From Armatimonadota bacterium (lineage in GTDB: Bacteria > Armatimonadota > DTGP01 > JAKQQT01), in NCBI GenBank assembly GCA_036504095.1, contig DASXVS010000042.1:62001-126000 (forward strand): a DNA stretch of 64,000 nt, in the 5' to 3' direction. The notes below the pieces were generated by a model that worked only from the letters and a program-made list of their open reading frames with translations, was not told the DNA's origin and did not search any database. The number at the start of each line of letters is the position of its first letter. Within the stretch, counting starts at the first letter, position 1. Shown one piece after another: positions 18,951 through 24,539 of this stretch. The position numbers and the translations under genes are program-made.

Positions 18951-21900
18951 ATGAACACACCAAACAAACCCACGCGGTTCGATGTGCACGCTGTGAATCC
19001 GCTGCATTTGATCCACAAATGGTCCATCGAGCATCCCTATGTCATCGTCTCGTTCTACATCGCGGTCATCGCCATGGCCTACATCGCGCTCTCGGGGCGG
19101 ATGCCCCGCCGCTTCGCGCCCTACGTGCAGAGCCCGATGCTGGGCGTCGTCACGATGATGCCGGGCCTGTCCGCACAGGAAATGGAGATGTACGTCTCCA
19201 AGCCGATCGAAGAGCAGATCGTCAACGTGAAGAACCTGCGCTACGCCCGCAGCACGTCGCAGGACGGTTTCTCCATCGTGACCCTCGAGTTCTACTACGG
19301 GTCGGATATGCAGAAGGCGCAGACCGACGTGCAGTCCCTGCTGAACGTCATCCAGGCCAACCTGCCCGTGACCGGGGCGAACATCAAGCCGTCGTGGGTT
19401 GTTTCCGTGGACCCGTTGAACTTGCCCGTGGCCACCTTGAGCCTGCGCGGCGACCCGGACAAAGGCTGGGATCCGGTCAAACTGCGCGAGTTCGCGGACA
19501 ACGACGTCGTGAACGCTATCAAGCCCGTAAAGGACGTGTACTCGGTCGTGCCGTTCGGCGGCTACCGGCGGCAGATGCAGGTCATCGTCGATCGGAGCAA
19601 GGTGGCGGCCTACGGCCTCTCCATCCTGGACGTGAAAAACGGTATCGACCGTTACAACGTGGCGCGCTCGGCCGGCACCGTGACATCCGGGACGGGCGAG
19701 GGCATCGTCCGCGTGAACACCCTGGCGACCAGCGCACAGGACGTGCTGAACTACCCGATCACCAGCGTGAAACCCGGCGTGCCAGCCGCGGCGCCGCCTG
19801 GAGACACCGGCGGCTCCGGGGGCGGCGCCGCGATGGGCATGGGCGGTGGCGGCGGCGCATCGGCCGCCGCTCCGGCACCCGCACCGACGGCACCATCGTC
19901 TACTTCGCCGCGTGTGATCTATGTCCGGGACGTTGCCAGGGTGGTGGATACGCACTGGGAGCGCCGCAGCGCCTACCACTACCTGAAGAACGACGGAGCA
20001 GGGCCGGCCGAGGTCATCCCGTCCATCGAGGTGAACGTTATCCAGAACCCCGGGGCAAGCGCCGCGGAGGTGGAACCCGCCGTGCTGCAGGCCGCGCGCG
20101 ATCTGGAACGTCAGAACCCCGGCATCCATTTCGACGTGGCGTATGACAGCGCGCACTTTGTGAACATTCTCTTCGAGAACGTCTGGCACGAACTGGCTGT
20201 GGCGATCCTGTTGACCGCGCTGGCGGTCCTGTTTTTCCTCGGGGAATGGCGGGGGACGGTGATCGCGATGATCACGCTGCCGACGTCGCTGGCGATGGCC
20301 ATCCTCTTCATGATGCCGCTGGGGATGACGTTCAACTCCGGCACGCTCATCGGCCTGCTGCTGTCGATCGGGCGCCTCGTGGACGACTCGATCATCGACA
20401 TCCACGCCGTGGAGCGCCACCTCCGAATGGGAAAGGACCCGAAAACGGCGACCATCGACGGCATCGCCGAGGTCCGCCTCGCGGTCATCGCGTCCACGCT
20501 GATGATGGTCCTGGCGCTCACCCCGCTGCTTTTCTCGGGCGGGCTGGTCCAACTGATGTTCCGCGAGTTGGTCTGGCCGATCATCTTCGGCCTGCTGGCT
20601 TCGATGCTGGTGTCGTTCACCCTCACCGCCCTCCTGTGCGCCAATTTCCTGCGGCACGAGGAGGAGCGGGCGGCGGACCGCAAGCATCCTGTGCTGAAGT
20701 GGCTTTACGTACCGCTCGATCCGTTCCAGCGCGGCCTGAACCGCCTCGAAGCGTGGTATGCCCGTTCCATCGACTGGATGCTGGAGAACCGGTTCTGGTC
20801 GTTTGCCCGCATCGCGGCGGTCGTGATCATCGGCTTCACGTTCTACTACTTCCTGGGCTCCGAAATGATGCCGTTGGCGGATGTGGGCCAGGCAAGCGGC
20901 CTCCTGGAGATGGCGCCCGGAACGACGTTCGCACAGACCGAGCAGGCCGTTCAGCAGGTCGAGAAGATCATGCTCAAGTACCCGGAGTTGCAGAAGGGCA
21001 GTATAGAGATCGGCCAGGAGACGATGTTCGAGTCTTGGAACCCGTTCTTCACCGGCTACCAGATGCCCCAGGTGAACGCGGCATCGATGATGCTGACTTT
21101 CAGCGACAAGGGAGAGCGCAAGCGCACTATTTTCCAGATGATTGACTCGATTCAGAAGGAGGCTCTGGCAGCGGTTCCGGGCATTCGGCGGTTCCAGATC
21201 AAGGAGATGGGCTCGGATGTGATGGCGACCTCCGCCGCGCCCGTCCACGTGAACATCTACGGGCCTGACCTGGCAACGCTGGACCGCCTCGGGCGGCAGG
21301 TGCTGAAGGTTGCGGACAGGATGCCCGAGATGTACCAGCCCGGCACGACGTGGAGCATGAGCCTGCCGGACTACGAGATCAAGGTGGACCCGCAGCGCGC
21401 CCAGGAAGTGGGCCTCTCGCCAGAGAGCATCAGCCAGCAGGCTTACTACGCCCTCCGCGGAGGCCTGACGAACGAGTTCTACCGGCTGCCCAACCGGCGC
21501 CAGGACACTATCCTGGTCCGGTACGACCAGGCCGACCGCCAGACGGCCCAGAACGTTGAAGCCATGTACGTCACCGGCCCGGACGGCCGTCAGATACCGC
21601 TGAAGAGCGTGGCGACCGTCGAGCGCACCGTGGCGCCGTCCGTGATCGAGCACGATCAGATGAAGCGCGTCATCGGGGTTACCGGCTTCTACCGGCTTGG
21701 TAACCTGCCATCCATGGACGTCGTGATGAACCTCGTCTCCAACACCTACGCGGGGAATCCCAAACTGGGAATTCAGAGAGTGAACTTCCCGCCGGGATAC
21801 GGGATGGAGATGCGCGGCGATATGACGCAGATGATGGACTCTTTCCGGCGCCTCATCGGCGGGCTGGCGCTCGCGCTGATCTTCATGTACCTCGTGCTCG

Positions 21901-22439
21901 TCGCCCAGTTCCGGGGGTTCCTGCAGCCGTTCCAGATGATCGTCAGCCTCCCGTTGGAACTGGCCGGCGTGTTCATCGCGCTGTTCATCGCCCACCAGGC
22001 GTTCTCAACCGTCTCGATCCTCGGCGTCATCGTGCTGACCGGCATGGACATCACCACCGCCGTGCTGATGATCGACCTGATCGTGAAGTACCGCGACCGC
22101 GGGGTTCCTCGGGACCAGGCCATCCGCGAGGCGTGTCCGCAGAGGCTTCGGCCGATCCTGATGACCTCGGCCATCAGCCTCATCGTGCTCCTGCCGGTGG
22201 CGATCGCGCCGAAGACCGGGCTGGACGCCTACCAGCCGCTCGCGACGGCCGTGTGCGGAGGATTGCTCGTCGGCACGGTGCTCTCGCTGATGGACATCCC
22301 GATCATGCACACGTTCATGGACGACTTCATCCGCTGGGTGAACAAGACGTTCCTGGGGCGCGATTGGGAGTGGCCGGTGACTGATGAGCCCGGCGCCGGG
22401 CCCGTAGAAGAGTCAGTAACGACAGGAGCTGCGAAATGA
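18951..22439 (+). CDS. RND efflux pump (inner-membrane transporter), efflux system A
   Basis: 1,162 residues, full length for the AcrB/CusA superfamily, with 12 hydrophobic helices in two sets of six and two large periplasmic loops. The TM4 proton-relay region reads LSIGRLVDDSIIDIHAVERH, keeping the paired Asp. Residues about 278-320 are an unusual Gly/Ala/Pro-rich insert (GGSGGGAAMGMGGGGG) in the first porter loop. It starts 9 bp after the adaptor gene and overlaps the next gene by 4 bp. The substrate is not certain: sequence style lies between heavy-metal and drug types. Confidence 0.92.
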   Translation: MNTPNKPTRFDVHAVNPLHLIHKWSIEHPYVIVSFYIAVIAMAYIALSGRMPRRFAPYVQSPMLGVVTMMPGLSAQEMEMYVSKPIEEQIVNVKNLRYARSTSQDGFSIVTLEFYYGSDMQKAQTDVQSLLNVIQANLPVTGANIKPSWVVSVDPLNLPVATLSLRGDPDKGWDPVKLREFADNDVVNAIKPVKDVYSVVPFGGYRRQMQVIVDRSKVAAYGLSILDVKNGIDRYNVARSAGTVTSGTGEGIVRVNTLATSAQDVLNYPITSVKPGVPAAAPPGDTGGSGGGAAMGMGGGGGASAAAPAPAPTAPSSTSPRVIYVRDVARVVDTHWERRSAYHYLKNDGAGPAEVIPSIEVNVIQNPGASAAEVEPAVLQAARDLERQNPGIHFDVAYDSAHFVNILFENVWHELAVAILLTALAVLFFLGEWRGTVIAMITLPTSLAMAILFMMPLGMTFNSGTLIGLLLSIGRLVDDSIIDIHAVERHLRMGKDPKTATIDGIAEVRLAVIASTLMMVLALTPLLFSGGLVQLMFRELVWPIIFGLLASMLVSFTLTALLCANFLRHEEERAADRKHPVLKWLYVPLDPFQRGLNRLEAWYARSIDWMLENRFWSFARIAAVVIIGFTFYYFLGSEMMPLADVGQASGLLEMAPGTTFAQTEQAVQQVEKIMLKYPELQKGSIEIGQETMFESWNPFFTGYQMPQVNAASMMLTFSDKGERKRTIFQMIDSIQKEALAAVPGIRRFQIKEMGSDVMATSAAPVHVNIYGPDLATLDRLGRQVLKVADRMPEMYQPGTTWSMSLPDYEIKVDPQRAQEVGLSPESISQQAYYALRGGLTNEFYRLPNRRQDTILVRYDQADRQTAQNVEAMYVTGPDGRQIPLKSVATVERTVAPSVIEHDQMKRVIGVTGFYRLGNLPSMDVVMNLVSNTYAGNPKLGIQRVNFPPGYGMEMRGDMTQMMDSFRRLIGGLALALIFMYLVLVAQFRGFLQPFQMIVSLPLELAGVFIALFIAHQAFSTVSILGVIVLTGMDITTAVLMIDLIVKYRDRGVPRDQAIREACPQRLRPILMTSAISLIVLLPVAIAPKTGLDAYQPLATAVCGGLLVGTVLSLMDIPIMHTFMDDFIRWVNKTFLGRDWEWPVTDEPGAGPVEESVTTGAAK

Positions 22440-23095
22440 GCAACACGAACAAGCGTGGCGCTAATCGGACGCGCCTCGCACCATCGACTGAAGTCGACGG
22501 CTGCCCACCCAAAAGTCGGCTGAAGCCGACTGCGGACAAACCGTCTTCAGACGGTGTCGATTATCAGACGTTGGCTTCAGCCAATGGCAGGCGACCACTC
22601 ATCAGGGTCGGCCCGGGCCTGGTTCTGGCGGTACTCGCGAGCATCGCGGTATGGGCGTTCATGCCAAGGCAGCCGAGCGGTCCGAAGATATCACCTTCGC
22701 CGGCGTCAATGCCTGCGATCTCGAGCGCGCCGGATCCGCACTGGCTCCTCCGTCAGGCGGATGCCCTCGGGTTGACCCCCGTCCAGGCGTTCAAACTGAG
22801 CCGCCTCGTCAACCGGTGGGACCGCGATACAGCCGGCCTGAAGCGGGACCTGGACGCCGCGGCAGCGGACCTTCGAAGACGCATGCCGAGCCGGCCGGAG
22901 GCGAAACTCTCCGTTCAGAAGATGCAGCAGGACGCCGGCCCGATGGCGGCGTTGTCGGGACAGATGGCGGACGCCCGCCGCGCATGGTGGGCGGAAGCGA
23001 GGACCGTACTGACGCCCAGCCAGCGGGCCAAAGCCGAGGCGGCCTGGTCCGACCAGTGGTCCGGGCGTGGCACGGCGAAAGAGGAGTCGAGGTAG
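22436..23095 (+). CDS. CpxP/Spy-like periplasmic protein anchored in the membrane, with a repeat-derived N-terminus
   Basis: 219 residues; the ATG overlaps the RND stop (ATGA) and AGGAG lies just before it. Residues about 55-76 form one membrane anchor. After a Pro/Ser linker, a helical periplasmic domain contains LGLTPVQAFKLSRLVNRWDRD and LTPSQRAKAEAAW, the LTxxQ signature pattern of CpxP/Spy/ZraP stress proteins. The first 50 residues are encoded by a cluster of palindromic repeats and have no protein-like features, so they were probably added by insertion. The likely role is periplasmic sensing or chaperoning for efflux system A. Confidence 0.75.
   Translation: MSNTNKRGANRTRLAPSTEVDGCPPKSRLKPTADKPSSDGVDYQTLASANGRRPLIRVGPGLVLAVLASIAVWAFMPRQPSGPKISPSPASMPAISSAPDPHWLLRQADALGLTPVQAFKLSRLVNRWDRDTAGLKRDLDAAAADLRRRMPSRPEAKLSVQKMQQDAGPMAALSGQMADARRAWWAEARTVLTPSQRAKAEAAWSDQWSGRGTAKEESR
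22484..22584. repeat. Four-palindrome REP/REPIN-like element inside a coding sequence
   Basis: Four perfect palindromes occur at regular spacing: TCGACTGAAGTCGA (22484-22497), AGTCGGCTGAAGCCGACT (22514-22531), CCGTCTTCAGACGG (22541-22554) and TTGGCTTCAGCCAA (22571-22584). The first two have the core CTGAAG and the last two its reverse complement CTTCAG, so the array is two direct plus two inverted units, the layout of a REPIN. It lies wholly in frame within the 5' part of the CpxP-like gene. Confidence 0.75.
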
Positions 23096-23099
23096 CACC

Positions 23100-24539
23100 A
23101 TGAACAAACCAATGAGCATAATATTGTCCCTCAGTCTCGCGGCGCCCCTTTGGGCGCAGCCGGCGAGCGTTCCGGACACCTCAGCCGCCGGAGCGCTCGG
23201 ACCCATTCTGGCATCGCGGCCGGTGATCCACCAGGCGCTCACCATCGATCAGGCGGTCGAGATCGCACTGAGGGAGAGCCCGGTGGTCAGGGGCTCCGCC
23301 GCCGATGTTGACGCCGCCATTGGGCGTCTCCGGGCGGCCCAGGCGGAGCGGCTGCCATGGCTATCCACCAACGCCTTCGTTTCCACAGGCAATTCGGCGA
23401 GCGTGATGTCAACGCCGCCTCCGACACAGCCGGCGGCGATCATGGCGCTGCCGGATAGAAGGTTCACCGACCTGAACCTATCGCTGATGCTTCCGCTCTT
23501 CACGGGCGGGCGGTTGGAAGCTATGATCAGGCAAGCGGAGGCGCTTCGGCGCGCCTCGGATGCAGATCTCGCCGCACAGCGCCAGACAGTGGCACTGATG
23601 GCCCGCACCGCTTTCCACGACGTGCAGGCCCGCCGCTCTCTCGTCGACGTTGCCAAAGCGCGGCTGACGGAGAACGAGGCGCGGCTCAAGAACGATCAGG
23701 CACGCTTCCAGGTCCAACAGATTCCCGAGTACTATCTCAGGCGCGACGAAGCGGAGGTCGCGGCCGCGCAGCAGGAAGTCACGAATGCGAAGCGGGACGC
23801 CGACCTCTCTGTTGTCCAATTGAAAACCATCATGGGGATCAGCCCCGCGTCGCAGATCGATGTCTCCGGCAGCCTGGCCGATCCGTCCGCGGAGTTTCTG
23901 ACGGGCCTAACCCGCCAGGCGCCATCTATGGCGTCAGGAGGCGCTGCATCGACATCCGATGATCTGTCGGCACTGCTGCGGCTGGCGGAACGGCAGCGTC
24001 CTGAGCTTCGGGGGGCAGAAGAGCGTTTGAGGGGCGCCGGCCACGAGGTCCGATCGGTGCGCGGGGCCTACCTCCCACAGGTCAGTGTGGGCGTGATGGG
24101 CGACTGGATGAAGATGGGCGGCGATCCATCGCAGACAGGGACCACCGCCGCGCTCATCGCGTCCTTCCCGCTCTACAACGGCGGGCAGCGCGAGGCGCGG
24201 CTGCGGGAGGCGGACGCGATGCGCAGGCGCTCGGAGCAGGATCGGCAGGAGGCTGCCCTCCAGGTGGCGCAGGACGTGAGTACTGCCCTGCTGAATCTGC
24301 GTGCGGCGGAGCAGAATGTGGCAACGGCAAACGCGGGCCTGACAGCCGCCGAGGCGGAGTACAAGGCGGCGCAGCTGCGGTACGATGTGGGACGCAGCAT
24401 CGTGGCGGAAGTCCTCGACGCGCTGGCTTCGCGCGTCCACGCCCAGAGCGACGTCGTGCAGGCCCGGTACCAGTATAACGTGGCGCAGGACCAATTGCTG
24501 CGAGCCGTGGGCGGACTTCCGGCGCCGGCGACGAGATAA
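23100..24539 (+). CDS. TolC-family outer-membrane efflux protein, efflux system A
   Basis: 479 residues from ATG 23100. The signal peptide is MSIILSLSLAAPLWAQ. Two outer-membrane-efflux repeats show long amphipathic helices (ALRRASDADLAAQRQTVAL, EARLREADAMRRRSEQ) and the recurrent PLFTGGR / PLYNGGQ turn before the helices, typical of TolC. It would form the trimeric exit duct for the adaptor and pump encoded upstream. The gene ends 47 bp from the convergent histidine-kinase stop. Confidence 0.92.
   Translation: MNKPMSIILSLSLAAPLWAQPASVPDTSAAGALGPILASRPVIHQALTIDQAVEIALRESPVVRGSAADVDAAIGRLRAAQAERLPWLSTNAFVSTGNSASVMSTPPPTQPAAIMALPDRRFTDLNLSLMLPLFTGGRLEAMIRQAEALRRASDADLAAQRQTVALMARTAFHDVQARRSLVDVAKARLTENEARLKNDQARFQVQQIPEYYLRRDEAEVAAAQQEVTNAKRDADLSVVQLKTIMGISPASQIDVSGSLADPSAEFLTGLTRQAPSMASGGAASTSDDLSALLRLAERQRPELRGAEERLRGAGHEVRSVRGAYLPQVSVGVMGDWMKMGGDPSQTGTTAALIASFPLYNGGQREARLREADAMRRRSEQDRQEAALQVAQDVSTALLNLRAAEQNVATANAGLTAAEAEYKAAQLRYDVGRSIVAEVLDALASRVHAQSDVVQARYQYNVAQDQLLRAVGGLPAPATR

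Follow-up and report, generated by a model that had tools for sequence, protein, structure and literature searches.

Results

The hairpin array and its host gene

Within the 64-kb stretch of DNA that we analyzed (the window), a small gene of 219 codons lies between the genes for an RND efflux pump and an outer-membrane efflux protein, and the 5' part of this small gene harbors an array of four hairpins. The features of the locus are as follows:

18951 to 22439, plus strand: RND efflux pump inner-membrane protein (ACR_tran, PF00873; Pfam E 9e-182)
22424 to 22428, plus strand: Shine-Dalgarno AGGAG, 7 nt before the ATG at 22436
22436 to 23095, plus strand: host gene, 219-aa CpxP/LTXXQ-like, signal-anchored protein (from the ORF and the homologue alignment)
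22481 to 22587, no strand assigned: whole four-hairpin element, CCA...TGG, 107 bp (from similarity to sibling copies)
22484 to 22497, plus strand: outer hairpin 1, TGAA loop, stem of 5
22514 to 22531, plus strand: inner hairpin 2, TGAA loop, stem of 7
22540 to 22555, minus strand: inner hairpin 3, TTCA loop (inverted), stem of 6
22571 to 22584, minus strand: outer hairpin 4, TTCA loop (inverted), stem of 5, opening with an in-frame TTG
22613 to 22657, plus strand: membrane (signal-anchor) helix, residues 60-74 (AlphaFold2 model, block pLDDT 90 and 76)
23100 to 24539, plus strand: outer-membrane efflux protein (OEP, PF02321; Pfam E 2.9e-54, from a run on the longer frame starting at GTG 23067; the ATG is at 23100), downstream of the host gene

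A preliminary description of this DNA had reported four perfect palindromes with mirrored cores in a gene that remains open through them, and both are present as described: the palindromes occupy exactly 22484-22584, and the ORF at 22436-23095 runs uninterrupted across all four. Perfect tetraloop hairpins with a stem of at least 5 number 101 in the window, and the only ones with TGAA or TTCA loops are the four of the array; among 100 order-1 Markov windows, the mean was 0.41 TGAA/TTCA hairpins of such stem length (maximum 2), and not one of the 100 had two within 60 bp. We placed the borders of the element at 22481 and 22587 because its similarity to the copies at two other sites, C8 and C46, stops at CCA and TGG. 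Its exact length is unsure, the 107 bp from CCA to TGG not being a multiple of 3. The element encodes residues P16 to about G51 of the host protein.

The host protein scored 19.4 bits against LTXXQ (PF07813), below the 24.3 cut-off, and the name "CpxP-like" denotes no more than a resemblance. In the AlphaFold2 model, confidence is 90 and above across most of the C-terminal helical domain and low over residues 1-60 (block means 48-64, with 48-55 over residues 1-50). The earlier proposal that the array encodes the only part of the protein lacking protein-like features agrees with this low-confidence stretch but goes too far in its "only", as the linker at residues 86-93 is also of low confidence.

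A dispersed family of elements

The same palindromes, for which the preliminary description had proposed a search between genes, occur at 28 genomic sites that are nearly all intergenic. The genome (4.68 Mb, 80 contigs) has 88 GGCTGAAGCC sites vs. 33 for the reversed control, and a longer unit motif has 33 exact matches. The unit, which starts CCA-YCGRCTGAAGYCGR, comprises an outer hairpin, CGGCTG, a linker and an inner hairpin, and is often mirrored into a four-hairpin element, with mirrored hairpin pairs at C8, C40, C46, C55, C80 and others. A covariance model (R1) was built from 34 of 43 listed units, after exclusion of ATGAAT-type, partial, near-duplicate and doubtful ones; it yielded 72 matches at E<=1, the 34 matching by construction, and of these matches we counted the 53 units at E<1e-3, which fall into the 28 sites, and dropped the 19 weaker ones. 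The stems covary, with changes on both sides in 9 of 12 stem pairs; paired cells reached 92.9% vs. 81.7% in shuffles (0 of 500 shuffles as high), and sliding the stem partners destroyed the signal. At the intergenic sites C8 and C46, the four-hairpin layout is like that of the window copy, each copy being 105 bp long and identical to the window copy at 82 of 103 ungapped columns.

Beyond the 24 matches of the unit motif in the source genome, 13 of 150 other genomes of the phylum had one match each; the motif counts show the family to be lineage-specific. R1 gave four weak matches each in G003 and G153, with best E values of 4.1e-5 and 1.3e-4, and no match in G001, G151, G152 and G154.

Other arrangements of these hairpins were also seen. 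Two solo hairpins of the form CCCCA-hairpin-TGGGG (C48:176250-176273, L143; C48:115178-115191, L142) are possibly central-deletion products of the full element, and tandem half elements occur as four copies with a 139-bp period (C64:5391-5866, L110) and as three copies with a period of about 115-121 bp (C46:87561-87856, L107).

Copies within genes

Intergenic sites account for 26 of the 28; at three of these the element runs 7-14 bp into the end of a gene. Genes were called with a simple codon-score caller, by which 87% of 474 kb was coding; as this caller put the host start at 22709, the window copy was counted as genic by its longest frame. Random insertion would place about 24 of the 28 sites in genes, and three or fewer would be expected with P about 1e-19. 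This deficit implies strong selection against genic copies, with the window copy as a survivor.

The second genic case is a half element read in frame in a GH38 alpha-mannosidase gene (C80:270568-270627, L155), where it makes up residues about 450-469, in the linker before Glyco_hydro_38C (residues 473-660); all 19 aligned homologues have gaps there. Three further candidates were rejected: 1) the copy at C24:17429 sits only in the longest frame of an M6 peptidase gene, which has a Shine-Dalgarno-bearing signal-peptide start downstream of the copy; 2) the copy at C80:91687 touches just an upstream extension of a gene; 3) the hairpin pair at C63:5613, in an open frame, was taken as chance, its residues being what we take to be a peptide-cyclotransferase motif. 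By hand count, 23 of 102 frames across 17 full elements are open. Open passage through the element is thus not rare, and the argument from an open frame is a modest one.

Homologues of the host protein

Homologues lacking the array, for which the preliminary description had called, were found. It is absent from 13 of 13 aligned homologues, 12 of which have 1-17 residues ahead of the GPG motif, and none of 29 further loci carries such hairpins at the corresponding place (some of these loci come from the same genomes as the aligned homologues, and two aligned poorly). In L014, the closest homologue, the tail runs to 56 residues of unrelated sequence and contains no palindromes; hence a long tail alone is no proof of insertion. 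These differences mark the N-terminal tail as variable and tolerant. No empty site was found among the genomes of the family and order, which are two, the other one being without a host homologue. Against a REP-like insertion the preliminary description had named two outcomes, a lack of further copies in the genome and conservation of the encoded residues; what emerged was 28 sites and homologues devoid of the array. Two RND relatives (L017 and L081) lie on contigs labelled archaeal (Methanoregulaceae and Nitrososphaera) that look bacterial and are probably mis-binned.

Transposase genes between copies of the element family

Among seven Y1 transposase matches in the genome, two TnpA genes (C80:206536-206976 and C45:44311-44742) sit between copies of the element family, with direct flank scores of 107.5 (shuffled maximum 17) and 131 (shuffled maximum 21), respectively. 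Both have HuH and the catalytic Y and are without the Y---NP or RAYT NPxRxG motif. They scored, C80 before C45, 76.4 and 70.1 against PF01797 (cut-off 23), passed the IS200/IS605 model NF033573 at 62.7 and 60.2 bits (cut-off 55), and failed the RAYT model NF047646 at 27.0 and 21.4 bits (cut-off 80). The motifs WQ and Y---Q--HH of TnpA-Y1 subclass 1.2 are found in 5 of 5 genes and DHVH in 4 of 5, with DHCH in C79; the assignment to this subclass is by motifs, not by a subclass HMM. Flank repeats scored above 200 shuffles at all five genes with subclass 1.2 motifs.

These results divide what had been proposed under the REPIN/RAYT label. Y1 genes do lie between copies of the repeat, but they are IS200/IS605-like rather than RAYT, and GT[AG]G is not among the conserved columns of the unit. 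With no GT[AG]G head and with flanked transposases failing the RAYT model, the label is not borne out.

Three more IS200-like TnpA genes, L007 (C24), L008 (C41) and L006 (C79), have flanking inverted hairpins of their own, of different sequence. The genome also has a RAYT-like gene (L012:1345-1857, C45:20235 region) that carries an NPVRKG motif, scores 79.5 bits against NF047646 (cut-off 80) and is flanked on either side by GTAG-type REPs GTAGCGCGGGCGCCCTCGCCCG, with copies also in L095, L101 and L114; the GTAG-type repeat of this pair is absent from the 64-kb window.

Discussion

We believe, with a probability of roughly three in four, that the array represents a copy of a non-autonomous transposable element of the IS200/IS605 type (Y1, HuH) with four hairpins, inserted in frame and tolerated. 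The element would consist of two inverted copies of the unit bounded by CCA and TGG, and probably moved in single-stranded form through the action of an IS200-like TnpA of the same genome, for which the gene at C80:206536-206976 is the candidate, as suggested by its adjacency to family members and its sequence match. It would have landed about 16 codons into the CpxP-like gene, oriented and phased such that no stop codon interrupted the reading; the start codon and membrane anchor would thereby have been kept in frame, with a gain to the protein of about 36 residues, probably translated, that are predicted to be disordered and cytoplasmic, ahead of the signal anchor. We surmise that the copy has persisted most likely because the tail is tolerant, rather than because the element does something.

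Alternatively, the element may be a leader, with translation starting at the TTG at 22571 and the upstream frame open by chance. Ahead of the membrane helix, no other ordinary in-frame start offers an alternative to the ATG, and use of this TTG would leave a 13-residue tail, like those of most homologues; in addition, codon usage across the element is poor and not coding-like (-0.10 per codon). Di Nocera and colleagues (PMC3733652) also hold that most REPs at N-termini may be extragenic, with translation starting downstream, and caution that many of them are in fact leaders. Nevertheless, we consider a leader unlikely, as evidenced by: 1) the codon at 22571 is a TTG inside a hairpin, and no Shine-Dalgarno was found for it in the test applied to the ATG at 22436; 2) this ATG has an AGGAG, although at least 5 matching bases are met at about 7% of random positions, and it overlaps the stop of the upstream RND gene (ATGA), a junction kept in several relatives, with the homologous start overlapping or abutting the RND stop in L014, L015, L036, L037, L039, L040, L087 and L089; 3) the 15 codons ahead of the element, though few, are coding-like in usage (+0.115 per codon). 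The start at 22709 that the codon-score caller preferred would remove the conserved membrane helix. Translation from the ATG at 22436, as predicted from these signals, is well ahead of the leader reading, yet it is not proven.

The preliminary description had also entertained that the hairpins tune translation of the CpxP-like gene relative to the coupled pump; more broadly, they might be kept because they adjust its translation or the stability of its mRNA. Consistent with this, the array folds more strongly than shuffles (z -4.80) and lies 48 nt from the start of the message of a gene coupled to the one upstream. However, the same hairpins stand beside unrelated genes at 26 intergenic sites, and the element by itself accounts for the strength of the fold; moreover, accessibility of the Shine-Dalgarno, predicted for the message with and without the element, gave no consistent picture over three lengths (0.54/0.65, 0.54/0.54 and 0.32/0.74), and the array is not conserved in any homologue examined. 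Thus, we find tuning quite improbable; a regulatory function is not supported, and the element's own life cycle explains the hairpins. Misassembly, with the element joining two unrelated places of the probably metagenome-derived draft (80 contigs), deserves mention since repeats promote chimeric joins, but it is far less probable still given that the element is short (107 bp), that its copies differ by about 20%, and that the order RND - CpxP-like - OEP across it matches L014 and L015. That the palindromes arose as a chance by-product of ancestral coding sequence is refuted by the rate in Markov windows, the dispersed intergenic copies and the stem covariation, and we give it virtually no weight.

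The in-frame insertion of a four-hairpin mobile element into the CpxP-like gene may be compared with several known systems. Rickettsia palindromic elements (RPEs) are reportedly the subject of Ogata et al. (2000 and 2002), and REPIN/RAYT systems that of Bertels and Rainey (2011). Our literature search, outside the coverage of which lay most subscription journals, found nothing on REP sequences in Armatimonadetes and, on subclass 1.2 TnpA HuH, nothing besides PMC6006769.

Intragenic REPs of the GTAG and CGTC super-families, as described by Di Nocera et al. 2013 (PMC3733652), are mostly intergenic, with few copies read in frame, N-termini included. The present family is likewise palindromic, dispersed and mostly intergenic with few in-frame copies, one of them N-terminal, but it carries no GTAG or CGTC tag, having instead CTGAAG cores, a four-hairpin unit and a CCA...TGG border, and the transposases it flanks are IS200-like, not RAYT. 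As with RPEs, a protein gene has taken up a palindromic element in frame and apparently tolerates it; however, nearly half of RPE copies are in genes according to PMC10969869 and PMC3733652, vs. 2 of 28 sites here, and the sequences are unrelated. The inverted hairpin pairs, the many dispersed copies and a Y1 HuH transposase gene between repeats recall REPIN/RAYT systems, which Nunvar et al. 2010 (PMC2817692) present as non-autonomous inverted hairpin pairs tied to a repeat-flanked Y1 HuH transposase; here, in contrast, there is no GT[AG]G head, and the cognate transposases are without NPxRxG and fail the RAYT model. REPs inserted in frame into tnpA-REP genes (subclass 2.4) are also alike, but the host gene there, according to PMC6006769, is the transposase itself.

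The DHVH, WQ and Y---Q--HH motifs of the TnpA flanked by the family are those of subclass 1.2, which PMC6006769 lists as low-copy, generally lacking terminal structures, found for the most part in Cyanobacteria and Bacteroidetes, and "no" for REPs. In contrast, the TnpA here is flanked by, and apparently serves, a dispersed hairpin family. We tentatively postulate, at somewhat less than even odds, that subclass 1.2 TnpA drive REPIN-like populations of their own, at least two genes in this genome sitting between, and probably having spread, the members of two related four-hairpin families, one with CTGAAG and one with ATGAAT cores, from which copies were fused in frame into the CpxP-like protein and the GH38 mannosidase. 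The insertion provides an example, beyond Rickettsia and Proteobacteria, of a palindromic mobile element captured in frame, and the place where it sits, a disordered tail ahead of a signal anchor, accounts for its being tolerated. It further links dispersed REPIN-like elements with a subclass of transposases credited with no such partners, offering a testable second origin of REPIN-like populations. In-frame palindromic insertion as such is already known from Rickettsia and several REP-rich genomes; what is unusual here is the element family together with its partner, the apparent helper enzyme, both of which look like a new variety.
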